Assembly (NCBI GenBank): GCA_036365515.1
Contig: CM070874.1
Span: 47,119,083 to 47,183,082 of the forward strand
DNA: 64,000 nucleotides
Reading direction: 5' to 3'
From: Torymus aiolomorphi
Taxonomy: Eukaryota; Arthropoda; Insecta; Hymenoptera; Torymidae
A program made the translations under genes and the position numbers. The notes beneath the pieces were generated by a model, which was not told where the DNA came from, ran no database searches, and saw only the letters and a list, made by a program, of their open reading frames with translations. This document shows positions 2,611 to 52,992 of this stretch, piece after piece. Position 1 is the stretch's first letter, and each line of letters opens with the position of its first letter.

Positions 2611-5600
2611 GTAAAGTAAAAAAAAAGTTTTAAAAGTGAATACAAAATTTTAACAATGTAAGTTCGAATTTATTTAGTAATTACATGCTTCCAACATTTT
2701 AGAGGTAGAAAAACAATTGCAAGGTAGCAGTGGTCAAGTTCAACTTTTATCTTGCAACAAATCACAGACTGGTAGTTCAGGAAATATCCATGGACTTGTA
2801 CTTGCTGCTGAGCAACATACTTCTACTGGCACTCAAGGTAATAAAATATATCATTGAAATTATATACAATATTTTTAATATAAATATATTTTAGAATCTA
2901 CAAGTTCAGTTACCAAATTAAGTACATTTATGGGAGGTCTTTCAAATAAAGGAAATAGCAGTATGGTACAAATGAGACGTTCAACAAATAAAAAGGGCAA
3001 ACAAGCACCTGCTCCTCCAAAGCGTACAAGGTAGATAGTAGTTTTCATTATCTGTGTTGCATTGAAGTATTTCGTAATTTTCAATGGCTAATAGATCTTT
3101 CCTCTATTTTTTTATTTTTGTAAATTATAACGCTTAATGTTTATGAAATTCATACCTTTGTCTTTTTAATTTGCAGCCTTCTATCGTCATGTAGTTCTTT
3201 TCGAGATTCTGCCTACCAAGATCAGGATCATCAAAATGCGGATATGTCTAATGTTGCATTGCACGATGGCACTGATCTAAATGGTATTGACAAGATTTTT
3301 CAAGGTATTTCGTCACACGAATTAATTATACCTAACGGTATTTTTTGCACGTTTTATTTTGAGTCTTTTTGACCCCCTTGAGTCAATTCATGTTTTGGGC
3401 TCGTAATTTTTGTATTTTGCATCATAATACTCGTGTGACATCCATGCTACCATTGTCTGTGGGTCATTCTCCCCCCTCTAACAAGGAGACTGCATAACCT
3501 TTGGGAAGCGGATCTTTGACTGGGCTTTAAGATTTAATTTCTTGAAATATAGGCTACCTAAACTTAAATGTACGTTATTTTGTTGAAGAATGATGTCTAT
3601 TTGTTGACTGTAACTGCAAATGTTAATGTTACGAATGCGATCCAAACAAAATTATTAATTTACGCAGAACCTGTTTTTTTTTTTTTAACGTTTTTAGGAT
3701 GATAATTTAAACGGTTCTCTTACGCTGTCTTAGATTGCTGAAATAATTAATATTTTTTAACGAAACCAAACTTGAAGTTTTTCCTGCGTACTTTTATACA
3801 TTTTTTAGCTTGTATTTGTAATTAATATTTGGAGAGTTACAGTCAATAGACATCAGTTTTCAACAAAATAAGATTAGATAGCCCATATTTCGAGAAAAAG
3901 AGCCTATGAGAACTAATTGCCGGTACTGAGGTTCCTGGGATTCATTTTGGAGCACTAGAAATCAACTCTTAAAGTCCAGTTGAGATCCATTTCTCAAAGA
4001 CTCTACATCTCCCTGATAGTAACAAATATTTTTTTTGTCAAGCCGTATGCTGAACTACTGCATGTACGAGTCGTGGCTACGCAAATTAATCTTTATTTCG
4101 TGCATCTATATACTTTTAACCTATAGCATACACTCTCTATGTCGTACTTTTTTCTTCTGCAAACTTGATCCAGACATTTGCAATAGACCATTCTGGACAG
4201 ATTGATACGTGGTAAATGTAAATTTATTTTATTATACTTCTGCATGATACATATCCAAAACTAAATATTTATTTAAATTGAAAAATTTTGCAACTTAAAA
4301 ATTTAAATTGAATTAAAATACAATTAAAATTAAAATTTTTAGTAAACCTAGCATATGCTTGTACTAAATAGAATTTAAACTTAAGGTAGATATTATGTTT
4401 TTAACATTATTTTTTATTTAATTGTTTTTTTTTCTCACAATGAAGTTTTTCAAATATAATAATATGTCTGGATCGTTTACAGTTTCAAGATCGTAATTAT
4501 TTTTACGCTTTGATCCTTGCTCTCATAATATTCAAGCAGTGTTACATGATTTTATTAACAAAATTGAACGCATCATCATGTTTTATCTAATGCTCCAGTG
4601 TATTTCGAGGCTCTGCTTTCATGCTTTTAGGGTGTTTATGACACAAAACATCATCTATCACAAAACATTATTCTCGTCACGACTCGCGCTCCGAGAATGA
4701 CCCATTTTAAACACGAGTATTCGATGGTAATCAACATAATATTAACAGGACTGGGGCATTATGCACTTAAAATTAAAATATTTATTGTTAAAACTATTTA
4801 TTGAGGAAATTTCTTTTTTTAACATTATATAAGATGCATTACTAACTCAGTCCTGTAAATAAAGTAGAATGTAAGAGACACACATAATTTATTAGACATT
4901 TATGTCTTTTTTTAATCAATAGAATTAATTTTTCAAACGATCACTACCGTTTTTAACAATGCTTATTAATAAAAAAAAAGCTAAAATAATTAGCAGTATA
5001 TGTAGCATACAAATACTCATTAGACGTTTAATCACGTATTAAATTAAAATATTCAAAATTTTGCACTTTACCTCAGGCACAGCACAATATAGTTCTAAAA
5101 AAACACACACACACATACACTTATTCTATAACTACTATTTAAATGTAACAGGATAGTTCATTTGCACTTGAAATAAACATATTTCCTCTTTAAAAGGCAA
5201 ATTATACACAATACATTTTTCTCTTGGATTGTAATATTTGTAAAATACTCCAAATTATTAGAACATACATTTTTTAAATTGAATACATCTTTAAAAACAA
5301 AATGGTAATATTTTAGATCATACAATACTGTATCTTACTATAGAAATGCAAATATTTCCAAAATTCTATCAACCTTTAACGCCGAGTTCTATTAAATTTA
5401 CTTTAAACGAAAAATACTGTAAACCATAAACGTGTGTCATTATTCTTAAATTGGCAAAATTAAAAGTGGCCTGTCAATTCTTGATGAAATAAAAAAAAAT
5501 TTAGGAGTGACTCGTGATCTCGTGACAATGGCCACTCAGTCGAGTACTGGGGGAGGTTGGGACATGGAGCACGATGGTGACGGTTCGCAAGGTACAGCAG

Positions 5601-25812: not shown

Positions 25813-28677
25813 ATGGCGCAGAATCATGAAGTATTAGAAGACATACATAAGCAATTATATCAGCAGGAAATCGCATATAATGATTTAAAGTCTTTTAATC
25901 AAGATAGAAAAGCAACAGATAATTTGATTTTATACTTGAATATAAGAGGTTTAAAAACTAATTTTGAGAAATTGCAAATCTTGAATAAAAGGCTTAAAAT
26001 CAAACCTTATGTGATAGTATGTACTGAAACCGGTAATTTAGAACACTATCAATATTATAAATTAAATGGATACAATATTTATTATAACCATAGTCTCATA
26101 AACAAATCAGATGGTGTGGTCGTATATGTAAAAAAAGATGTAACCCAGACAACTAATGTGATAGAACAGGGTAGGCTAAAAATACTAAATACAATTATAA
26201 ACCTTCAAAACAATAGTCATTTGGAAATCTCAGCTATGTACAGATCACATGATCTACATAACACAGAGTTTATTTTAAAGGTAAATCAATATTTGCAACT
26301 TAAGAGAAGAGTTAAAAACCATTTGATAATAGGTGATTTTAATATAAATATAATGTTACAAAACAATATTAGTCAGAATTTTCTATACAATTTTCTTGAA
26401 AATGGCTATTACCCTGGTTTTACTGATACGACTAGACCATATAATGTAACTACTGATAGTGGAACATGCATAGACAATATTTTTATAAAAACTAGCTCAA
26501 TCAATACAAAAACTTTCAAATTAATGACGCTAATTACTGATCACTATCCGCTATTTATAGATATAAAAAAACCTCTAGTGAATACAGAGATGAAAAAAAA
26601 TAAAACTAATTATTCATTAAATTACAAAAAAATAGCTATTATAGCAAGTCAAAAATGTTGGAATGAATACACACAAATCGAGGATCCAAACGAAGCAATA
26701 AACCTTTTTATAGATGGAATAACACAATGTCAAGAAAAATCAAAAAGAAACCCGGCTAAATACAATAATGTACCTAGAAAAGAATGGATTACTATTGCGT
26801 TAATAAAATCCTGTAAAAAAAAGGACAAATTATATAAACAGCTTAAAAAAAATCCAATGAATGAAAGATTACAAAGTGAATACAAAAACTATGTTAAATG
26901 TATAAACAAAGTTATAAAAGATGCCAAAATTAAATACGAGAAGGATCTTATAGAGAAAAACTCAGATAATCCAAGACAACTATGGAAAATTGTAAATTCC
27001 AAACTGGGTAACAAAAATAAAAAAGATAATAATATAAGTGAAATATATGATGAAAACGAGGAGATAGTAAAAATCCCATCCAAAATTGCGAACATCATGA
27101 ATGACTATTACGGCAAAATGGGCAAAGAAATGAGTGACAAAATTACTGCCCCAAGTAACAAATTTATACAACTACCACCAAGTAACTTAAATACAATTTT
27201 CCTACATCCTACAAATGAAATTGAAATTAAAAAAATAATTGAGAATTTGAAAATCAAGAATGGTGGAGTTGACAAAATAAATGCTAAGACACTCAAAACA
27301 ATATCTGATCTTATAGCAGATCCTTTGGCATATATCGTCAATAAATGTATTGAAAAATCAATATGGCCGGATGCGCTAAAAGCAGCTGAAGTGGTACCAA
27401 TTTATAAATCAGGGAAAAAATTACAAGTTAATAACTACAGACCTATATCATTAATATCGAATATAGCAAAAATCTTTGAAAAAGTAATCTATGAAAGAAT
27501 TTTTGATTTTATTAAAAAACATAAAATATTAAGTGAAAAACAGTTTGGCTTTATTAAAAGCAAAGGAACCACAGATGCTCTAAGCTGTATTACAAAGAGG
27601 ATCTATGAGAACTTAGATAAGAGTAAGCCCATTATAGTCGCATTTCTGGATCTAGCAAAAGCCTTTGATACAGTTGATCATAATATACTTTTACATAAGT
27701 TGCAAGCATACGGGATAAAAGGCAATGCTTATAATTTAATGCAAAGCTACTTAACAAATAGAAAGCAGAAAGTAAGAATTGGCCAAAGTGAGAGTGAACC
27801 GATAACAATAACGGTGGGAGTGCCACAAGGAACAATTCTTGAGCCATTACTTTTTATATTATATATAAATGATCTACTTATAACAATGCCAGAAAACTCA
27901 ATTTTATCATATGCTGATGACACAGCAGTTATATCGTCAGGTAAAACCTGGAAAGAAGTTGAAAGTGAAATGAATCTATATCTTGAAAAAGTAGCTATAT
28001 GGCTTGCATTGAATAAACTAACATTAAACATAAGTAAAACTGTGTACATAACTTTCGGAAATTACTGTGACAGTGTACCAAAAAATTTAAATGTATATAT
28101 TAACAAAGAAAAAAATAGAGTTGACTCGTGTAAATATTTAGGAGTAAATTTTGATTATAATCTAAAATGGGATGAACATATTAACTACCTAATCAAAAAA
28201 ACAAGTTACTTAAATTTCATCTTTTACAAAATCAATAAATTTATGCAAACAAGTACATTAAAGGTTATTTACTATGCGTTTTTTCACAGTGTTATTAATT
28301 ATGGGATAATTGCCTGGGGAGGTGTATATAAAAACAATCAACATTTACTTCAAAATATACAAAACAGACTACTTAAACTAGTTTTCAAAAACACGTTTGA
28401 GCAAAATAAACCTATGAATATTAAGCAACTATTCACATGGGACTGCTTAAAATATCATTACAGCGAAATGAAAAATATATTCACAAACTCAAATAGTAAG
28501 ACAAGAAATAAAGCTATATTATTACCAAAAATTGACAAAAGAGTAAGCGAAAAAAACAATTATATAACTGCAATAAAGACTTTTAATATACTACCAAATG
28601 AGCTCAAAACTCTAGATATAGACAAAAGACCTGCGAGGTACAAAATAAAAGAATGGATTGTGAAAAATATTTATTGA
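25813..28677 (+). CDS. LINE ORF2: endonuclease and reverse transcriptase, intact 954 codons
   Basis: Encodes the protein that nicks target DNA and reverse-transcribes the LINE RNA. An APE-type endonuclease occupies about residues 35-250 (LNIRGLKTNFEKLQ, TETGN, GDFNIN near 175, TDHYPLF near 242). Reverse transcriptase follows at about 500-760 (YRPISLISN, LDLAKAFDTVDH near 610, GVPQGTILEPLLF, SYADD near 699). The C-terminus has the KYLGVNFDYNLKW segment common to Jockey/CR1 LINEs. No stop or frameshift was found. One oddity is that the usual G before PLLF is E. The start ATG gives a complete endonuclease domain. Confidence 0.9.
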   Translation: MAQNHEVLEDIHKQLYQQEIAYNDLKSFNQDRKATDNLILYLNIRGLKTNFEKLQILNKRLKIKPYVIVCTETGNLEHYQYYKLNGYNIYYNHSLINKSDGVVVYVKKDVTQTTNVIEQGRLKILNTIINLQNNSHLEISAMYRSHDLHNTEFILKVNQYLQLKRRVKNHLIIGDFNINIMLQNNISQNFLYNFLENGYYPGFTDTTRPYNVTTDSGTCIDNIFIKTSSINTKTFKLMTLITDHYPLFIDIKKPLVNTEMKKNKTNYSLNYKKIAIIASQKCWNEYTQIEDPNEAINLFIDGITQCQEKSKRNPAKYNNVPRKEWITIALIKSCKKKDKLYKQLKKNPMNERLQSEYKNYVKCINKVIKDAKIKYEKDLIEKNSDNPRQLWKIVNSKLGNKNKKDNNISEIYDENEEIVKIPSKIANIMNDYYGKMGKEMSDKITAPSNKFIQLPPSNLNTIFLHPTNEIEIKKIIENLKIKNGGVDKINAKTLKTISDLIADPLAYIVNKCIEKSIWPDALKAAEVVPIYKSGKKLQVNNYRPISLISNIAKIFEKVIYERIFDFIKKHKILSEKQFGFIKSKGTTDALSCITKRIYENLDKSKPIIVAFLDLAKAFDTVDHNILLHKLQAYGIKGNAYNLMQSYLTNRKQKVRIGQSESEPITITVGVPQGTILEPLLFILYINDLLITMPENSILSYADDTAVISSGKTWKEVESEMNLYLEKVAIWLALNKLTLNISKTVYITFGNYCDSVPKNLNVYINKEKNRVDSCKYLGVNFDYNLKWDEHINYLIKKTSYLNFIFYKINKFMQTSTLKVIYYAFFHSVINYGIIAWGGVYKNNQHLLQNIQNRLLKLVFKNTFEQNKPMNIKQLFTWDCLKYHYSEMKNIFTNSNSKTRNKAILLPKIDKRVSEKNNYITAIKTFNILPNELKTLDIDKRPARYKIKEWIVKNIY

Positions 28678-29710: not shown

Positions 29711-30210
29711 GGGGACACAGCTCCCCGGCGGGCAGTCTCGCTTAGAGAAAGAATCCAACCTTGGACTTATCAGCACTCACGTATCTTCAAGAATTTACGC
29801 CAGATTTATATAGTTACATCAAGTTTAACGCATTTCAACGAATTATATCAAGTTCAAAGAATTCCATCAAGTTTAACTTTTAACGTATACCAACGAGTAT
29901 TAAGGAGTTTCAACAAGGTTCAATAAGCTTCAACAAGCTTCGACTAGTTTTCAACGAGCTACCATAAATCTGCCACGAGTTGTCAACGAGTTCCGACATA
30001 CAACGAATCAACCACAAACAGATAAGCATCCACACCAATCAGAGCAAGGAGCGTCGTCCTACCCAAGGTTTTTGAGGCTGTGGTTTCCCTTGGGACTACA
30101 AGGTGAATACCAGGATAACGGGTGATTGAAATTGGGTCCACGGCTGTCCATATCGAAGGAATAAGAGCCCCAATCAACACCGAATCCGACGGATAAATCA
30201 GATAACATAT

Positions 30211-30851: not shown

Positions 30852-30960
30852 CCTCAAAATGCTAAGCGGGTACCGACGACTTTTGAGGATGCTCCTCAAA
30901 ATGCTAAAAAATCCTCAAAAGTCGGTATTTTTGCCGAATATAATCCTCAAAATGCTGTAG
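30852..30960. repeat. CCTCAAAATGCT tandem motif between two microsatellites
   Basis: At least three TCCTCAAAATGCT copies plus inverse AGCATTTTGAGGA-like and CTTTTGAGGATGCTCC variants. The block lies between an AC repeat on the left and a TG repeat on the right, giving an overall inverted arrangement. Confidence 0.6.
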
Positions 30961-30962
30961 AG

Positions 30963-30971
30963 CTGTGTGTG

Positions 30972-31004
<33 letters not shown>

Positions 31005-31027
31005 CTGTGTGTGTGTGTGTGTGTGTA
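30963..31027. repeat. (TG)n microsatellite
   Basis: About 32 TG units with two interruptions, directly upstream of the gag-coding sequence. It is the inverse of the AC repeat at 30,672. Confidence 0.95.
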
Positions 31028-31037
31028 TTATTATTAG

Positions 31038-31822
31038 TACAAAAACCTACCGAAAAGGTCTCTGAATACGGCTTGCGAGCAACAAAGCTTTTCCAGCAGG
31101 CTGTAGAATGGATAAATGAGGATTTTGAAGCTGACATCATCACAGGAATGACCCAGGGCACCATTGCCACGGCCATTACCAACTTTCAATTAGGCCTACA
31201 AAACGACATCAATCATCGGATGATCGGAACTTTTCCCGCTCCCACAACTCTCGAAGCAGCCATTAGTAGAGCGATAGAACCAGAACTAGAGGTTAACTTG
31301 TGGAGGGTGATACACAAGGAAGAAGGGAACCAGGTGCGATGTCAGACAGTAGACGGAAACTCCAGTGAAGATCAACCACGGAACAAAAGGCAGGCATTGA
31401 ACTGTTATCAATGTGGGGAGCTTGGACATATTGCGCGAGAATGCCAAAAGCGAAGAGAACAAGCGGAAACACGAAATCAACAATGTACCTTTTGTAAGAC
31501 CCCTGGACACACATGGGAGGAGTGTCGTAAAAGGAACAAACAAAATAAACAGTGTACGTTTTGTAACATACCTGGACACACGGTGGAGGAATGCAGGAGA
31601 AGAAAAAATAATCAGATTCAATATTGCAACTTTTGTAAGAGAACCGGGCACACATGGAATAACTGCAGAAATAGACTTAACAACCAACCAGCAAACAACA
31701 ATGAGAACAAACCTCCTCTAAACTTCAACCACGTTCGCCGTATGGACATAACAGCGGACGGTCAGAACAACCAAGTGTCCAAAACAGAATCTTCATCGCC
31801 CTCGGACAGGAAGGAAAATTAA
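31038..31822 (+). pseudogene. Gypsy 1 gag, N-terminally truncated, four zinc knuckles
   Basis: The frame starts inside the protein at VQKPTEKVSEYG and includes a capsid-like helical region (FNxxLGLQNDI type). Four CX2CX4HX4C knuckles follow: CYQCGELGHIAREC, CTFCKTPGHTWEEC, CTFCNIPGHTVEEC and CNFCKRTGHTWNNC. Gag packages the element RNA. Four knuckles is more than the usual one or two. The N-terminus is cut off by the microsatellite block. The frame ends at TAA 31,820-31,822 and overlaps the protease frame, which is in -1. Confidence 0.85.
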
Positions 31823-32409
31823 AATTCCCCAACCGTATCGTATTAATAAAAGAGTATCCTCAATTTTTGGTAGATACAGGATCTGAATTAAATTTAATAA
31901 AGTAAGGACTTTTGAAAAATATAGAGGAAATAAAAACCAATAAACTATATCAATTAACGGGCATCAGCGAGGGAGTGATACATACCTTAGGCAATATTAA
32001 CATAAACTTAAGCGACTTAAATTGTAAAATGGAGATAGTACCTGATGATTTTCCTATAGAGTATGATAGAATTTTGGATTGTGAATTTTTAAGAACTCAA
32101 AATGCTATCTTATCCTTTCCCGATAAACAACTTACCTTGACCCGAGATCCACCGAAAAACATACCATTTATACTTCACGAAACTTACTTTGTACCTGCCA
32201 GGACCAGATTATTGATAAAAGCACGAGTAGAAAACGATAAAAAATCAGGATATGTTCCTAGGATTGAAGCAGAACCAGGACTTTATGCAGGTGGATGTTT
32301 AGTTACCAACCGGAATGGTAGAGCACCTATGTTTATCATAAATACAATTACTGAAGACATAAACATTACTATACCAGCTCTCACGTTGGAGAATTATGAT
32401 CGCACTTAA
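31760..32409 (+). pseudogene. Gypsy 1 protease, broken
   Basis: A retropepsin-like aspartic protease in the -1 frame relative to gag. The catalytic motif FLVDTGSELNLIK (D-T-G at about 31,873-31,881) is followed by an in-frame TAA at 31,903-31,905. After the stop the frame continues as ILDCEFLRTQNAILSF and PFILHETYFVPARTR, the linker toward reverse transcriptase. The stop disables a single polyprotein. Confidence 0.75.
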
Positions 32410-32518
32410 CTCCCGTCCGAACCATACGAGCCAATAGCGAGGAAGAAAGAAAAAGCAAAATAAAAAATAGAATAAACAAAATAACACAATGCTTGGACTT
32501 ATAACTGAATAACTGAAC

Positions 32519-33432
32519 GTGGAAGAAAGAGACAGCGTGATTGATCTTATTGAACAGTTTCCGAACCAATTTCATCTTCCTGGGGATAAATTGAGTAAAA
32601 CCGCAGCCATTACTCATAAAATACCAACAACTGATGAAATCCCAATTAATGTAAAACAATATCGACAATCCCCGAATTTAAGAGAGGAATCACAGAAACA
32701 AGTTCAAGAAATGATAAATAATGATATCATCGAAGAATCCGACTCTCCCTACAATTATCCCGTTTCGATAGTTCCTAAGAAACCGGATTCTCAAGGAAAT
32801 AGGCGATGGCATCTCGTTATAGACTCCCAAGCTTTAAATAAAAAGACGATCGCTTCTGCGTATCCCCTCCCTAATATTACAGACATATTAGAACAATTGG
32901 GAAGCTCAAAATATTTTTCGACCTTAGATCTAGCATCAGGGTTTCATCAGATTCCAATAGATCCTAAAGACGCCCCTGAAACTGCTTTTTCCACAACATA
33001 TGGACATTATGAAGATAAGCGGATGCCTATGGGACTGAAAGGAGCTCCGAGCACCTTTCAGTTCCTAATGAATAAGCTTTTGAGCGGGTTGCAGGGAGTA
33101 GAATTATTTGTATAATTGGATGATATAGTAGTATATACAGCTTCCATAGAAGAGCATACAATGAAGATGAGAAAATTATTTGGTCGATTAAGACTGCAGG
33201 ATTGGCCTTGCAGCCCGAGAAATGTCTTTTTCTAAAAAGGGAGGCTATTTATTTGGGACACATAATTTCGGAAAATGGAGTTAAACCCGACCCTAAGAAA
33301 ACTAAGGCTGTTATGGAATTTCCCCAACCTAAAAACGCAAAAAATATAAAACAATTCTTGGGATTGGTAGGCTATTATAGACGATTTATACCTGATTTTT
33401 CAAGGATTGCTAAACCCTTAACAAATTTATGA
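32519..33432 (+). pseudogene. Gypsy 1 reverse transcriptase, broken in the catalytic motif
   Basis: A Ty3/gypsy RT carrying VSIVPKKPDSQGNRRWHLVID, TLDLASGFHQI (first catalytic Asp) and MPMGLKGAPSTFQ. The active-site box reads V-stop-L-D-D, because the tyrosine position is TAA at 33,113-33,115. A frameshift follows near 33,190, after which LGHIISENGV, FLGLVGYYRRFIPDFS and IAKPL continue. Another stop lies at 33,430. No functional enzyme can be made. Confidence 0.85.
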
Positions 33433-33920
33433 AAAAAGGGAATACCTTTTATTTGAGATAATAGTCAGGAACTAGCTTTCAAAAAATTAAAACAAATTTT
33501 ATGTACTGAGCCTTTGTTGCGATACTCTGATTTCAATGAGCCGTTTATATTAACTACTGATGCCTCAGATTATGTTCTGGGAGCTATTCTTAGCCAGGGA
33601 AAAATAGGAAGAGATCCACCAATTGCCTCTGCTTCATGGACTTTAAGTGATGCGGAAATTAAATATACAACCACTGAAAAAGAATTATTGGCTATTATTA
33701 TATTAAGTATTCGCGACCCAACATTTTCGGCCGTATTTGTTTGGAAGAAAGTTTACTTTAGTAACTGATCATTGCGCGTTAGTTTAGTTTCGCAAATTAA
33801 AAGACCCAATTGCACGAATTGGGCGATGGGAATTCAAATTAAGAGAGTATGATTTTAACGTTGAATATAGACCCGGGAGAATAAACGCAAACGCAGACGC
33901 ACTATCACGAAATCGTGTTT
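33433..33920 (+). pseudogene. Gypsy 1 RNase H, broken
   Basis: RNase H of gypsy type. LLRYSDFNEPFILTTDASDY includes the catalytic DAS, then YTTTEKELLAI provides the glutamate. A frameshift near 33,720 leads to the tail REYDFNVEYRPGRINANADA-LSR in another frame. It lies between RT and the repeat-rich spacer. Confidence 0.8.
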
Positions 33921-34260
33921 CGCCGGCCGCCATACCCCGGGAGTTGTGTTAGAGGTATCTGAAGAGGCGTAGTACTCTTGCCAGCAGAGTTGAGCTCGCG
34001 GGACAGCATTGTGCTTCCCACCGGGGGGTAACCCCGGCAGAGTGAGTGCAAGCAAACAACCTCGTCAATGGTATCAAGAAACCCCGACGAGCGAAACAAA
34101 TAATTCAGTTGTGGGCCAACACCTTGAATGGTATTAAGAAACCCTAACAAATACGCAAAGACGCCTCCAGGGCGTATTAACCGGTCTCACGGGACAGCAT
34201 TGTAGGTAAAACGCCTGTCGGTGGCCAACACCTTGAATGGTATCAAGAAATCCCAGCAGG
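33921..34260 (+). repeat. Repeat-rich insert after RNase H
   Basis: Not clearly coding. CGGGACAGCATTGT occurs twice and CACCTTGAATGGTAT(C/T)AAGAAA occurs two to three times, spaced about 85-110 bp. The sequence is GC-richer than its surroundings. It separates the RNase H end from the Asn/Asp-rich ORF. Confidence 0.55.
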
Positions 34261-34261
34261 A

Positions 34262-34937
34262 GTGAATGCTGGCAAGGGGCCTAACAAACAAATAACAAAA
34301 GCAAAACAAAATAAGAGAAAAGGAATTGACAAAGAGACAAATGAAACGAATGAATCGGAAATCAAGATGATTGAAAATGATTCTAATCATAAAGAAGCAA
34401 ATAACGATTTCATTAACATGACAACCAAAAATGATTCTGATAAAGCCAATAATGATCTAACGAATATGATAATTGATAATGATTCTGATAAAGCCAATAA
34501 TGATTTAACGAATATGATAATTGATAATAAATATTATAAAGCAAGTAACAATTTAACGAACAAAATATTAGATAACGAGTCTGACAATATAAACAATAAT
34601 AATTGATGACGATATAAGTGACGATAGCATTGATTTAACAAACAATAATGATTTCAAAGACGATAAAATTAATCTAGTAAGCAATAAAATTAATAACAAT
34701 AAGGAAATTGATGATGCGTTTGACGAGAGTGACCGAGAACTCGAGGAAATTAAAATAATAAATATACTAATTTGTGATAATAAATCAATAGAGTCAAATT
34801 TAACAATTGAAGAAAGATGTTATTTTTTCACAATAGATTACGTTTTATTTTCGAAAGATCAATTAACTAGGAGAAATGATAATATAGCACATTTTATATC
34901 TAAAGATTGCAAAATTTGTTCAGAAGTATGCCGACAA
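34262..34937 (+). pseudogene. Asn/Asp/Lys-rich coding repeat between RNase H and integrase
   Basis: An open frame (34,262-34,606) rich in N, D, K and E contains a 17-residue unit DSDKANNDLTNMIIDN repeated two to three times, encoded by a 51-bp DNA repeat. A further AT-rich low-complexity stretch with frame breaks leads into integrase. I know no function for this linker. It may be a slippage-expanded tether. Confidence 0.5.
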
Positions 34938-35812
34938 TTGGTGGATGAAGGTTACATAAATTTAGAACTTATAAAAAACGAAAATTTAGAAATAGGATTC
35001 GTTGTACAAACCGGTTTATCTAATGGAAAGTTGATATATTCAATAATAACAAAAGAACGACACGACGAATCATTAAAAATGGAGAATGTAATTAACGGAT
35101 TAGAGTCATTACGAAATAGTATGATAGGAGAAAAAACAAAAACAGTTAGTATAGCTAAAAACGGGGACGGTCTAGAAAATTTATACTGGCTACCTATCGA
35201 ACATAACATACGAGCTCATTGGGATGAGGGAGTACAACAAATTACAATTTTTAACGAAGAAGTCACTGCACCCCCAGATGAAGACCGTTTAAAAATTTTA
35301 TCTGAAGCCCATGATTCTGCTGTAGGAGGATACAAAGGTATCTATAAAACTTATAAACGAATTCGTGATCAATATTTTTGGCCAGGAATGAAAGAAGATA
35401 TTATTAATTATGTAAAAACTTGCGAAAACTGTCAAAGAAAAAGCTAGTAAGGATAAAAACCAGGCAATCTATGAAAATCACGACAACGCCTTCGGAGGCT
35501 TTCGAGATATTAGAAATGGACATTGTAGGTCCTTTGCTGGTAACAAACAATGGCAGTAAATACTTGTTGACTATGCAATGTAACTTAACTAAATACTCAG
35601 ATGCAATTCCTTTATCAGATATAACCTCTGAAACGGTAGCAGTAGCATTCGCGCGTGAATTTATTTGTAGATTCGGTTGCCCGCAAATTATAAAGATGGA
35701 TCAAGGAAGTAATTTTCAAAGTAAATTGTTTAAAAATTTCGTAAGAATTTTCAAAATAAAACAATTCAAATCAACCGCTTTTAGGCCCGAAACCATGGGA
35801 TTATTAGAAACC
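34938..35812 (+). pseudogene. Gypsy 1 integrase, truncated by an insertion
   Basis: Integrase with an HHCC-type N-terminal zinc domain (AHDSAVGGYKGIYKTYKRIR, then YFWPGM and CENCQRK). A stop/frameshift at about 35,445 is followed by the catalytic core: LEMDIVGPL (first Asp), KMDQGSNFQSKLF (second Asp) and MGLLE at the position of the glutamate. The frame is cut at 35,811 by the CCCTACTGAAAAA element, removing the C-terminal domain. Confidence 0.8.
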
Positions 35813-37974: not shown

Positions 37975-40031
37975 TGTAAGGAACTGGCGTTCCTTGGAGT
38001 ATGAAACCGACATAGACTCAAACTTTAAGCCTCTTTTACAATGAGTGCATTTGATTCGAACCCTTTTACTCTACGCATTCATGCATTTTACCGACATGAG
38101 ATTAAATTCAACCGAATTATTATAGTAAATAATAAATAGGGTAAAATAATAACAATTACTGCGATTATTATAAACAATACTCTCAATTTTATTAAAATCT
38201 TGGGTATAATTGGTGTTCTGATAATCATTTAAATAAACGATGCAATGCTGTCACGATTTCAAGTTAAAGAACATAATAATCAACAATATGACAGCTATTA
38301 ACAAATCATGAGCATCACCGTCGCTGATAACTAATTGTTAAAATATAACGCTTATAATTATTGAAGAATGCGCGGTATTTTATAGCAAACGTTGTGCGGC
38401 GTATAATCGGAGGATAATAACGTTGTGCAACGTTGTGTAAATAAATAAATATAATAACTAAAAATAGTTAAGGAGTTCATTAGCAACAATCATGATGACC
38501 AACTAAATATATTAATAATATTAATAACAATAATTTATCACTGGGGCCAAAAATAAACAATAGAGCGCAACATGCCTTATTATAGATAATTAACAACAAA
38601 TTTAAGAATAATCTCGAGATATCCGGATAATTAATGTCAATTGCAATAAACAAATAAAGGCATTTTTTATACAAGTTGTCAACGACTACCAAGAAAATTA
38701 GGAGTTGTGTAATAAAATATAAGTTAACGTATAATTAATTAATAACATCATAACTATAAAAACGTTAATAATAAATGCATCAAGGATATTTAATAATTAC
38801 CATGTAAGCAAAGATAAACGATTGTTGAGGATCCACGTGATTTGATAACAAATTTAGCAATAAATTCCAGTATATTTTTATAGATAACTATTAGTTTAAG
38901 ATATTGAAAATTAATATTGAAAATAATTGCAATTTAATAGATAATTAAGACAAATGTAACAATATTGTGCAACGTATAGTTAATAAATAATGATAGCATA
39001 TAAAGCTGACTTAAGAGATTGATTAAGATTAATTAAAACAAATAAACTAAGCCATTAATAAAGTTATTAGCTATAATTGACTAGTTAGTTAATAATTGAG
39101 CATTTTAAGCACTTTTCATTAATAAATTGAGATCATTTTGATTAATAAAGGAGAGACCGGCTAAATGAATAAAATAACAACAAATTACTGGTCATACAAG
39201 TTGTATAAATTGTTGATTGATATTATAATTAACAATACGTCATTAAACGTAATCTAACACACATAATTATCTGTTGCAGAGTATTCTAACGGATATTTTA
39301 TTCCTAGAACCCCTAGGTAGTAACAATTCCACGAAATTGCGTAGTAGGTAACCGACCAAAAGAGGGAATCAATGAGAGAAGCAGAATCTCCCACCACTGA
39401 AGAAGGGGGCGGAGCCTCTTTTCAGATTTTGGGGGTCGTACAGCCCTTCCACAGGCAATGGATGTATTTCCAGTTCTTGACACCAGAGGGAGAGGGATCA
39501 TCTTTAACGGCTTTCAGGTCCTCGCTCACTATATATAAGGGGACGCAGCTCCCCGGCGAGCAGTCTCGCTTAGAGAAAGAATCCAACCTTGGACTTATCA
39601 GCACCCGCGTATCTTCAAGAATTTACGCCACATTTATATAGTTACATCAAGTTTAACGCATTTCAACGAATTATATCAACTTCAACGAATTCCATCAACT
39701 TTTAACGTATATCAACGAGTATTAAGGAGTTTTAACGAGGTTCAATAAGCTTCAACAAGCTTCAACTACTTTTCAACGAGCTTCCATTAATCTGCGACGA
39801 GTTTTCAACGAGTTCCGACATACAACGAGTCAACCACAAACAGATAAGCATCCACACCAATCAGAGCAAAGAGCGTCGTCCTACCCAAGGCTTTTGAGGC
39901 TGTGGTTTCCCTTGAGACTACAGGGTGAATACCAGGATAAAGGGTGATTGAAATTGGGTCCACGGCCGTCATATCGAAGGAATAAGAGCCCCAATCAACA
40001 CCGAATCCGATGGATAAATCAGATAACATAT
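37975..40031 (+). repeat. 3' LTR of gypsy element 1
   Basis: About 2.06 kb from TGTAAGGAACTGG to CAGATAACATAT, matching the interrupted 5' LTR throughout. It has a TATA box at 39,532-39,538 and shares the 3' block ending in GATAAATCAGATAACATAT. It contains no internal insertion, so it gives the empty sites for five insertions in the 5' copy. A ribozyme-bearing element has inserted at its end. Confidence 0.8.
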
Positions 40032-40037
40032 ACATAT
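40020..40037. repeat. Left copy of 18-bp direct repeat flanking the ribozyme element
   Basis: CAGATAACATATACATAT, repeated exactly at 40,886-40,903. It is either a long target duplication or an insertion by homologous patching. Confidence 0.7.
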
Positions 40038-40220
40038 GAATTTAGTGAAGCTAATGCCTGTTATAGATCATTTATATGTAAGTAAATGCAGCTAATGTGT
40101 ATTGCAGGCAAAATTTTTCGCAAGTGTCCTTTTTTAGTTAAAGGCCCGAATAAAAAAAATTGTCAAAATATACGAAAAACAATAAATCAATGTCTTATTG
40201 TAGTAAAAAAAATTTATCAA

Positions 40221-40287
40221 AGGTGTTTCGTCCAGGCTACTAGATTGGACTCATCAGTCATGATCTAGTAGCCGTCATCAGACACCT
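40221..40287 (-). ncRNA. Hammerhead ribozyme motif, minus strand
   Basis: Read on the minus strand: stem III AGGTG, cleavage triplet GTC, stem I TGATGA, loop, stem I return with one mismatch (TCATGA), core CTGATGA, stem II GTCC and GGAC, core GAAA, stem III CACCT. All conserved core positions are present. The mismatch lies in the second pair of stem I from the core, so activity may be reduced. Confidence 0.7.
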
Positions 40288-40548
40288 ACCGCAGGATGAT
40301 AGCAGTCACAAGTTTATATAGACATAGCCACCTTTTTTCACAAAAGGACACTTGCGAAAAATTTTGCCTGCAATACACATTAGCTGCATTTACTTACATA
40401 TAAAAGATCTATAACAGGCATTAGTTTCACTAAATTCATACTTGATGCGGTTTTTGTGTGAAAAATACACCGATAGATGGAGCCCCCTTTTCCACTTGGG
40501 AAAAAGGTGGCTGTGTCTATAAACTTGTGACCGCTACCATCCTGCGGT

Positions 40549-40615
40549 AGGTGTCTGATGACGGCTACTAGATCATCACTGATGAGTCCAATCTAGTAGC
40601 CTGGACGAAACACCT
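40549..40615 (+). ncRNA. Hammerhead ribozyme, plus strand, complete core
   Basis: Self-cleaving RNA motif. In order: AGGTG (stem III 5' side, 40,549-40,553), then T and C (predicted cleavage after 40,555). Stem I is TGATGA (40,556-40,561) and TCATCA (40,573-40,578) around an 11-nt loop. Core CTGATGA is at 40,579-40,585. Stem II is GTCC/GGAC (40,586-40,589 and 40,603-40,606). Core GAAA is at 40,607-40,610 and the stem III 3' side is CACCT. Every consensus core residue matches and all stems pair. Stems I and II are closed and stem III is open, which is the type III layout. Confidence 0.8.
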
Positions 40616-40885
40616 TTGATAAATTTCTTTGACTACAATAAGACATTGACTTATTGTTTTTCGTATATTTTGACAATTTTTTTTTATTCGGGCCTTTAAC
40701 TAAAAAAGGACACTTGCGAAAAATTTTGCCTGCAATACACATTAGCTGCATTTACTTACATATAAATGATCTATAACAGGCATTAGCTTCACTAAATTCA
40801 TACTTGATGTGGTGTTTGTGTGAAAAATACACCGATAGATGGAGCCCCCTTTTCCACTTGGGAAAAAGGTGGCTGTGTCTATAAA

Positions 40886-40903
40886 CAGATAACATATACA
40901 TAT
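40886..40903. repeat. Right copy of the 18-bp direct repeat
   Basis: Identical to 40,020-40,037 and directly abutting the right end of the ribozyme element. Confidence 0.7.
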
Positions 40904-50477: not shown

Positions 50478-52351
50478 ACCAAAGACATTGAAAACAACGT
50501 TCGTATCAATGATATTAAGAATGGAGTTAGAGAAGATCTTATTGACACCTTTAATAAGTTTATTAAAAACAATAATAAGCGTCACATCAGTTTTGAAGAC
50601 AAAACGATTAAATGCAACCTGTTGAAAACAAAACAGTTCTTAAAATCCAATCCCGATATTTTCATCACGAAAGCCGACAAGTAACTGTAGTTTTGAATAA
50701 AACAGAATATGTGGAAGAAGTGGAACTGGCACTCTCTGATAGAAAATATTATGCCACAATTAAAAAATCACCGTTGAATAAATTACAAAAGAATATCAAA
50801 TGTTTGATTGATAATTGGAGGGCGAAAGGTGTTTTCGATACTGATGAAAGTTTTTCCTACGTGTCACGGGCCGAAATAGAGCAGACCAATCTTGCTAGAA
50901 CCTATGCTTTAGTTAAGATACATAAAACTGGTAATCCCATTCGCATCATTGTATCGGCTATCGGCAGTTCTACTTACGCTCTTGATAAAAGCCTATCTCT
51001 ACTTTTCATTAGACACTTTCCCCGTCCCACATCTACCATAAAAAGTAGCCTAGATCTCAAAAAAATTACTGACGACTTAGTTGTTCCAGATGATTTTGAG
51101 CTCTCCTCTTTTGATGTTGTCTCTCTCTTTTCCAATATTCCTTTTGATCTCATCCTCCAAGCTCTCACAGAAAAATGAAAGTTTCTAAAAAACAAAATCA
51201 ACTTATCTAGAGTAGAATTCTTAGATGGGATCAGACTGTTGCTCGATTCGACCTTTTTACAGTTCAACAATAAGTTTTACAAACAAATTATGGGAGCTCC
51301 CATGGGCTTTTGTACTAGCCCATGGTTTGCAGATATCACCCTGGAACTTTTAGAAACTTCCTGTTTAAATAAACATAAAAATGAGATACTCCTTTTTAAA
51401 AGATATGTTGACGATTGTTTTCTCATTACCAACACAAATAAAACAGAGGAAATTCTCACTTCTTTCAGTAGTTATAATAAACATTTACAATTCACCATGG
51501 AACGGGAAAATAACAAAAGCATAAGTTTCTTAGATATTAAACTCATCAAAACAGACAATAATAACATCATAACAAACTGGTACCGAAAGAATACTGCCTC
51601 TGGACGTTATATCAGTTACCTCTCACACCATCCTCAATCACAGAAAATAGCCATCACTTATAATTTAGTTGACAAATCCATTAAACTTTCACACCCACAA
51701 TTTCACCAGAGAAACCTATATACAGTTAAACATTAGCTTCATTGCAATTCCTATCCAGAACACATTATAAATAAATACATCAAGAGAAGACTAAAGGCCA
51801 TTGACAATTACCATCCACCTAGCAACCACACCAACAAACGGTCCATTTTCCTTAAAGATAAAGTAGTACTTCCTTATATTAAACACCTCACTCCAAAAAT
51901 CAATAATATCCTACATAAATATAACATAGTTCCGATAAATAAAACGATTAACAAATTTAACAATATAATAACCTTAGGTAAGGATCGCCTTGGAAAGTCA
52001 GATACTAATGGGATTGTCTACAAAATTGATTGCCAAGATTGTTCTTCTACTTATATCGACATGAGCAAAAGAAAATTAAAAAAGCGGACTTGTGAACACA
52101 TAAGAGCCGTAAAAAATTGCTCTAACAACTCTGCATTAGCCGTACATGTGGAGAAAACTGGACATGCAATCGACTTTAAAAACATCAAAATTTTAGACAA
52201 AGAACCAAATTTTTACAAACGCTCTTTCTCGGAGATGCTAAATATCTACTTCCACAGTAATACTCTCAATCGTATAGAAGACACACAATTCCAAAAAAAC
52301 TCTTACAGAAAAACAATAGACTTAGTAAAAAAGTTTTGGAATTTGTCTTAA
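50478..52351 (+). pseudogene. Penelope-like reverse transcriptase with GIY-YIG endonuclease domain
   Basis: Penelope elements copy their RNA with a telomerase-related RT and cut DNA with a GIY-YIG nuclease (family knowledge). The frame 50,478-50,684 (NPDIFITKADK-stop) is followed after a small deletion by 50,612-52,351. The RT shows LARTYALVKIHKTGNPIR, FELSSFDVVSLFSNIP, KQIMGAPMG and FKRYVDDCFL with an intact YVDD. Further stops are TGA at 51,176 (usual Trp position) and TAG at 51,734. The GIY-YIG part reads GIVYKIDCQDC, then TYIDMSKRKLKKRTCEH; the second motif has Asp where Gly is usual. The element is inactive. Confidence 0.85.
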
Positions 52352-52944: not shown

Positions 52945-52992
52945 ATTGTAGCCCTGAAGAGGAGAGTAACATTCACTCTCGAAACGTCGGCA
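52945..52992 (+). ncRNA. Minimal hammerhead-like motif of the Penelope element
   Basis: GCC-CTGAAGA (core, with A at the variable position 7), a stem GAGAGT/ACTCTC with a 7-nt loop, then GAAAC-GTC and GGC that can pair with the initial GCC. One extra G sits before stem II. Stem III is the self-complementary ACGT, so only a dimeric fold would be active. Hammerhead motifs of this kind are known in Penelope-like elements. Confidence 0.55.

Follow-up and report, generated by a model that had tools for sequence, protein, structure and literature searches.

The described systems closest to the repeat analysed here are the retrozymes, of which those of animals carry type I and those of plants type III hammerhead ribozymes, according to the available parts of PMC7229834. 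The metazoan non-LTR retrozymes set out there consist of tandem, non-coding, low-GC units of 150-450 nt with one hammerhead per unit, and are accompanied by target duplications of more than 4 bp; their ribozyme is of type I and as a rule free in the predicted circle, and Penelope-like elements were proposed, on circumstantial grounds, as their movers. Plant LTR retrozymes, as described in the available portions of PMC7229834 and PMC7761336, are 600-1000 nt in size and have a type III hammerhead predicted to be blocked in the circle, LTRs, a primer binding site and 4-bp duplications. Penelope-like elements, for their part, encode a reverse transcriptase and a GIY-YIG endonuclease and carry a minimal ribozyme; they show a head-to-head inverted arm, an optional one-end tail of 30-40 bp and two start sites, and insert into AT-rich targets with short duplications (PMC11167929 and PMC3846280, in their available parts). 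In rotifers, the head-to-head layout comes with a 31-bp tail and duplications of 8-10 bp (PMC3846280, available part). For a lizard Penelope-like protein, a preference for AT-rich DNA was reported, with cutting and extension of both strands and with reverse transcription beginning, in vitro, at two adjacent internal RNA sites, the stretch between which is the genomic 'tail' (PMC11167929). Finally, the available part of PMC7936874 describes type III hammerheads with Watson-Crick pairing between loops 1 and 2 in HDV-like RNA and in termite and fly genomes; these have long helices, an internal loop and a 4-nt contact, the termite motifs are isolated, and that architecture was not found in hymenopterans.

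The repeat reported here lies in a stretch of 64,000 nt from Torymus aiolomorphi (the window). It shares with the metazoan non-LTR retrozymes the short, non-coding, low-GC tandem units with one hammerhead each and the duplications longer than 4 bp, but its hammerhead is of type III rather than type I, with a 6-bp stem III, and is masked in the predicted fold. With the plant LTR retrozymes it has in common the type III hammerhead and the predicted blocking of the ribozyme, whereas it differs from them in unit size and duplications, neither a 600-1000-nt unit nor 4-bp duplications being found, and no LTR was seen. Unlike Penelope-like elements, it is non-coding, has neither an encoded reverse transcriptase nor a GIY-YIG endonuclease, and bears a full type III ribozyme, yet most of its sampled insertions display the Penelope-like footprint: two sites about 30-40 nt apart, one per end, an inverted arm and short duplications. 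Compared with the hammerheads of HDV-like RNA, termites and flies, it has short stems, a 10-nt complementarity between the loops and a mobile tandem setting. Type III has already been reported in insects, which the available part of PMC7761336 also names among the holders of such elements, so that its occurrence in an insect is no novelty. The first-pass annotation was right that type III is odd for an animal (PMC7229834, available part), a point qualified by these insect reports (PMC7936874 and PMC7761336, available parts). In the open-licence literature we found no report of a tandem, mobile setting for an insect type III hammerhead, and none of a Penelope-like footprint on a retrozyme; the words inverted, tail and head-to-head do not occur in the available part of PMC7229834, supplements excluded. 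The footprint, the complementarity of the loops, the size of the family and the inverted copy had not been foreseen by the first-pass annotation.

The type III hammerhead motif occupies positions 40549-40615 on the plus strand, with CTGATGA at 40579-40585, GAA at 40607-40609 and C17 at 40555, where the GTC triplet ends. Its three stems are paired (stem I, 40556-40561/40573-40578, 6 bp; stem II, 40586-40589/40603-40606, 4 bp; stem III, 40549-40554/40610-40615, 6 bp), and stem III is open. The initial description of a complete hammerhead in a small repeat element was thus borne out, for the core, the triplet and the stems, by the sequence and by cmscan with RF00008; stems I and II are as had been claimed, while stem III has 6 bp instead of 5. 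RNA of this stretch is predicted to cleave itself after 40555, in agreement with the end of the GTC triplet and with the cut proposed earlier. The covariance-model check that had been suggested gave, in E-value mode, a match to RF00008 (type III) from end to end, over all 54 positions, at 40548-40616 (+), with 38.8 bits and an E-value of 2.2e-6 for 1.8 kb or 7.6e-5 for the whole window. Since 38.8 bits is below the Rfam gathering score of 48.5 for RF00008, the motif is not listed at the default threshold; its long loops, of 11 and 13 nt, probably cost it score. Run on both strands, a descriptor scan matched the window once and none of 300 simulated sequences of 64 kb that reproduced its first-order composition. 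A chance motif was ruled out by these simulations together with the cmscan E-values, and a type I reading was rejected because nothing matched once the descriptor required a closed stem III, in keeping with the type III layout and open stem III that had been put forward. A second copy of the hammerhead, at 40221-40287 on the minus strand, lies in the inverted arm, has one G.G mismatch in stem I and was matched by RF00008 at 40220-40288 with 31.2 bits. Other Rfam matches in the window (microRNA families, SCARNA7 and others) were all under their gathering scores.

Loop 1 (40562-40572, +) has 10 nt complementary to loop 2 (40590-40602, +), and the two could pair into a hairpin that masks the ribozyme or into a pseudoknot. 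The minimum-free-energy fold of the 76-nt stretch is the loop 1-loop 2 hairpin, at -26.1 kcal/mol, which masks the hammerhead, against -13.3 kcal/mol for the hammerhead secondary structure with tertiary contacts left out. The lowest-energy folds predicted for the linear stretch and for the circular consensus units of three subfamilies are likewise without the hammerhead. Pseudoknots between stems I and II have been predicted for about 40% of hammerheads (PMC3088659, available part), and the ribozyme is masked in plant retrozymes and viroids and unmasked in most animal retrozymes (PMC7229834, available part). The pairing may either aid the hammerhead fold or mask it, and the predicted energies favour masking.

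The element in the window is one insertion of about 850 nt, made up of an inverted (head-to-head) partial copy at 40035-40337 (-), followed by 1.5 direct copies of a 362-nt unit at 40342-40885 (+). It is flanked by two identical 18-bp target-site duplications, CAGATAACATATACATAT, at 40020-40037 and 40886-40903. The insertion took place at the end of an LTR-like repeat (39600-40031, +; 93% identity to 29772-30210), which the left duplication overlaps, and the relative near 30.2 kb diverges after CAGATAACATAT; because the right duplication carries the same LTR end, the 18 bp look like a true target-site duplication. The LTR-like copy at 29772-30210 lies upstream of retroelement fragments (30944-35447), and the copy at 39600-40031 looks solo. 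The outer end of the inverted copy falls at site B, one of the two canonical end sites of the family, and that of the direct copies at neither site A nor site B, so that the two-site footprint is present at one end only (B) of the window copy.

We searched an assembly of 1.08 Gb in 21 contigs, on contig C2 of which the window is located, for further copies. A 33-nt piece of the ribozyme was found at 1,272 genomic places with up to 3 mismatches, against 0 for a reversed-pattern control, and the matches listed were exact ones on C1. A similarity search with the element gave at least 116 matches from the best 40 of 692 candidate places. RF00008, searched in the whole genome with 68 of 148,516 candidates scored, gave 2 places at E <=0.001 and none above the cut-off; with so few candidates scored, this is no measure of family size. 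The second of the two matches, at G000:C5:19270099-19270171, reached 39.8 bits. A scan of IMG/VR with one form of the ribozyme gave 0 matches, 0 TTAGG telomere repeats were found, and the bantam microRNA, a marker of arthropods, is present, pointing to a likely arthropod host.

Fifty loci were read (38 via the similarity search, 11 via the 33-nt pattern list, plus the window); they were chosen by similarity or exact ribozyme match and are thus non-random, and the near-copy place C3:122511937 was left out. Several copies (L043; L047/L048; L055/L056) have inverted or shared flanks and were therefore probably duplicated with the surrounding DNA, not inserted independently. The elements consist of unit sequence with gaps of up to 28 nt, except L071 (661 nt) and L077 (124 nt). 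In L071, a single duplication flanks two retrozyme arrays that are separated by 661 nt of sequence other than the unit (positions 3151-3811), and because of this insert its two ends are less certainly the product of one event. The longest stop-free run across the 50 elements is 117 aa, and no coding capacity was detected in the repeat. The 39 full units, 37 of them distinct, fell into three subfamilies of 12, 9 and 18 units, whose consensuses measure 355, 353 and 352 nt. The length of about 364 nt anticipated for a circle is hence too great, with 362 nt for the unit in the window and 352-355 nt in the subfamily consensuses.

The three subfamily consensuses are identical at columns 1-58 after the cleavage site, which is nearly the whole ribozyme, and show 30-85% agreement in the later 20-column bins; with fewer subfamily 2 units, they disagreed at one loop 1 position. 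For 54 tested pairs in eight helices, 97.3% of the cells of the 37 distinct units were paired, compared with 34-57% in slid controls. Two-sided changes amounted to 42 cells, whereas shuffles gave 14.5 and none of 500 was as high; this count is inflated by related rows, each subfamily change being a single event. The changes fall in four pairs only, and 102 of 500 shuffles have at least as many such pairs. In stem III, 9 units carry U-A for C-G, a compensatory change; the loop 1-loop 2 pairing has a two-sided change in 1 unit as aligned, and in 2 others when an inserted triplet is counted; and each of two other hairpins has two-sided changes in 16 units. Pair types were not above the shuffles (498 of 500 reach the count), two-sided pairs number 5 in the +1 slid control, and 15 of the 37 units have lost the last pairing of stem III. 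Overall, the covariation evidence, as it appears from the aligned units, is modest.

Single copies were compared after 18 partial ribozyme matches had been dropped, before the alignment of 68 copies. In 57 copies of subfamily 1, the core was mutated in 16 of 627 cells (2.6%), the stems in 1.5-4.6% and the flanks in 1.8-3.8%; purifying selection on single copies was not seen, the core mutating about as often as elsewhere. Free variation of core residues among related copies, which had been named beforehand as evidence against a ribozyme, is thus what single copies display, but it does not extend to the subfamily consensuses, where 58 positions agree and a stem III pair is compensated. The GTC triplet, the core and stems I and II are intact in 68 of 107 full ribozyme copies, that is, in 24 of 57 copies of subfamily 1 versus 44 of 50 of the other subfamilies, part of which were picked by exact ribozyme match.

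Analysis of the insertion ends revealed two preferred sites. Of 80 outer 3' ends at the 50 loci, 38 are at site A, 32 at site B and 10 elsewhere. A-type ends lie 15-30 nt past the ATTAGC of a first motif (40741-40766, +, in the window), and B-type ends 13-29 nt past that of a second, sequence-related motif (40781-40802, +); the B motif is 36-38 nt downstream of the A motif in the consensuses, and the preferred end sites are about 38 nt apart. Outer 5' ends (n = 20) are scattered, with 1 at A, 2 at B and 17 elsewhere. Among two-ended loci (n = 30), 20 are AB, 1 is AA, 1 is BB and 8 have an unclassified end, so that 10 of the 30 break the AB rule; the permutation p for AB pairing was 0.0002 on the 22 classified loci. 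The two classes were first seen in the initial 39 loci, and in 11 later loci all outer 3' ends (17/17) and all pairs (6/6) fit them, under distance limits set in the same analysis. The arms stand in the order '-' then '+' in 29 of the 50 loci, with a single arm in 20, a mixed order in 1 and solely '+' then '-' in 0. Duplications scoring at least 9 were found at 19 of 20 AB loci, compared with 3.5% of 2,450 cross-locus pairs; outside the AB loci, they occur at 8 of 20 one-ended loci and at 1 of 10 other two-ended loci, namely the window. Their length is 12-14 nt in 22 of 28 cases, and 18 bp in the window; the duplication of L073 is of low complexity. Next to AB loci the AT content is 76%, compared with 67% at greater distance. 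No poly-A or microsatellite tail common to the printed outer ends was apparent by eye.

A candidate kind of helper is present in the window itself, in the form of decayed Penelope-like reverse transcriptase frames with two stops (50612-52351, +). Downstream of these frames, at 52951-52991 (+), is a hammerhead-like sequence, CTGAAGA ... GAAACGTC, without Rfam match, which from its pattern we take to be of the minimal Penelope type. No blastn match was obtained between the unit and the Penelope element of the window, and the tail motif is absent from the rest of the window. When the Penelope-like protein fragment of the window was compared with the genome, at least 150 scored matches were obtained among 12,786 candidates, some of them in long open frames. 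One such element, L080, was read whole and has a 932-aa frame. Taken in pieces, the frame gave Pfam matches to RVT_1 and GIY-YIG, both sub-threshold; taken whole, it matched neither in Pfam, giving only a weak, off-target family, and a search of solved structures gave 0 matches. Residues 330-930 have 237 protein relatives, and among 120 listed, 96 carry RVT_1 and 5 GIY-YIG. Ten of the 13 species-named relatives among those 120 are Hymenoptera, so that the host is perhaps a hymenopteran.

In L080, site B is where the inverted arm stops, and the 3' pseudo-LTR stops some 31-34 nt upstream of it, at site A; the 13-bp duplication AAGAAACCTTTTA was identified by eye. In a second element of this family (L081/L082), the left end is at A and the right end at B, with a 13-bp duplication, AAATATTTAACAT, likewise read by eye, and it is on these two elements, of one family, that the two-end footprint of Penelope is based. 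A third yielded one B end; on the opposite side it continues as a tandem copy beyond the sequence read. A DNA search for the L080 family (40 of 309 candidates scored) gave 41 matches, of which 15 terminate at site B, all inside the same 6 nt, 25 reach the query end and one is an inner-part piece; site A ends are missing there, as shorter matches ending at site A would not enter that list. L080 also has a minimal hammerhead-like sequence without Rfam match. The tail of the unit shows no significant similarity to L080 and the window Penelope element, shuffles being as high in 124, 90 and 21 of 2,000.

Since most sampled insertions of the repeat end like those of Penelope elements in the same genome, it is likely Penelope that copies it to new places. 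On the basis of the motif, the agreement of the consensuses, the unit length, the end sites, the inverted arms, the duplications and the footprint shared with Penelope, all read from the DNA itself, we consider it probable that the family is a type III retrozyme-like repeat with a unit of about 355 nt, copied by Penelope-like machinery into new AT-rich sites. Transcripts of the repeat would cleave themselves to unit length, the unit RNAs would likely be circularised by a host ligase, and the circles would then likely be copied into AT-rich sites by a Penelope-like reverse transcriptase. The two target strands would each serve as primer for cDNA at one or other of the related RNA motifs A and B; the polymerases would travel along the repeat RNA or around it, and their products would come together head to head, giving the inverted arm. 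Loops 1 and 2 would form either a long pseudoknot aiding the hammerhead fold or a masking hairpin guarding the closed circle from being cut again.

A more specific version of this account, which we advance tentatively and to which we give slightly less than an even chance, is that of a type III animal retrozyme in which a Penelope-like enzyme primes both strands of a staggered break at two motif copies on one circular RNA, circles it several times and joins the cDNAs head to head, while a loop 1-loop 2 switch allows cutting during transcription and locks on closure of the circle. If true, this would be the first genomic footprint joining retrozymes to Penelope machinery. The footprint makes the Penelope proposal directly testable in one genome and supplies two defined start sites for an assay; it also places a type III ribozyme, possibly a self-masking one, among repeats that had as a rule carried type I. 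Moreover, the related A and B motifs, each serving as a rule for one insertion end, hint at why the Penelope 'tail' exists.

Other explanations were weighed against copying of a retrozyme-like repeat by Penelope-like machinery. An autonomous Penelope-like family with its own type III ribozyme could have had its pseudo-LTRs amplified into these repeats, which would then be Penelope by descent rather than a separate retrozyme. The footprint is the same, the ribozyme lies upstream of the two start sites in both, and Penelope-like elements are very abundant in this genome, with 150 matches scored among the 12,786 candidates. However, none of the 50 elements has a stop-free run above 117 aa, L080, read whole, carries its minimal hammerhead-like sequence without Rfam match, and its tail match is non-significant, and we regard descent from pseudo-LTRs as unlikely.

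We consider it distinctly improbable that an ordinary LINE mobilises the repeat, the inverted arms being due to twin priming and the end sites to two favoured internal annealing points. Twin priming also yields the order '-' then '+' with target duplications, and the window holds a LINE-like ORF (25813-28674) with reverse transcriptase and with an endonuclease match just short of the threshold. Yet in LINEs twin priming involves scattered internal sites and a minority of insertions, whereas 20 of 30 two-ended loci here have one A and one B end, a rule common to both Penelope elements read, and the outer ends inspected by eye share no poly-A or microsatellite tail.

A satellite that spreads through recombination of DNA, its ribozyme being purposeless for mobility, would account for the tandem arrays, as well as for the alternation of units in L036, which resembles a higher-order satellite repeat; the dispersed short insertions, the target duplications at 19 of 20 AB loci, the preferred end sites and the agreement of the ribozyme across subfamilies make it very improbable. 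Least credible of all is an endogenised viroid-like or satellite RNA agent replicating as RNA, to which the length of 352-362 nt, the type III ribozyme and its masked fold would be suited, as the ribozyme is present within the window in one polarity of the unit only and the many genomic copies bear a retrotransposon footprint.

Returning to the copying of the repeat by Penelope-like machinery, two loci bear on the nature of the template. In L078, nine units of both arms are arranged star-like around one sequence, an identical pair among them having one member in each arm. L036 (C1:175995307-175997952) is a tandem array alternating two unit types, here also termed A and B, with 2-5 differences between A units, 1-5 between B units and 8-15 between A and B. 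Either pattern could have arisen if a single small circle, dimeric in the case of L036, was copied repeatedly; a homogeneous array template or DNA recombination would also do. L036 looks as if it had been copied three times from a dimeric template, or else built by recombination. The inner cDNA ends lie within 5 nt of the cleavage site in 5 of 78 cases, some possibly an artefact of the query start; as the inner ends are not at the cleavage site, the templates were not simply cleaved linear units, a candidate that these positions rule out. Of the 78 inner ends, 22 (e.g. in L034, L047, L071 and L073) cluster between unit positions 207 and 235, close to the AGCT palindrome found at motif B; possible causes are joining by microhomology, a stop of the polymerase or the 5' end of an RNA.
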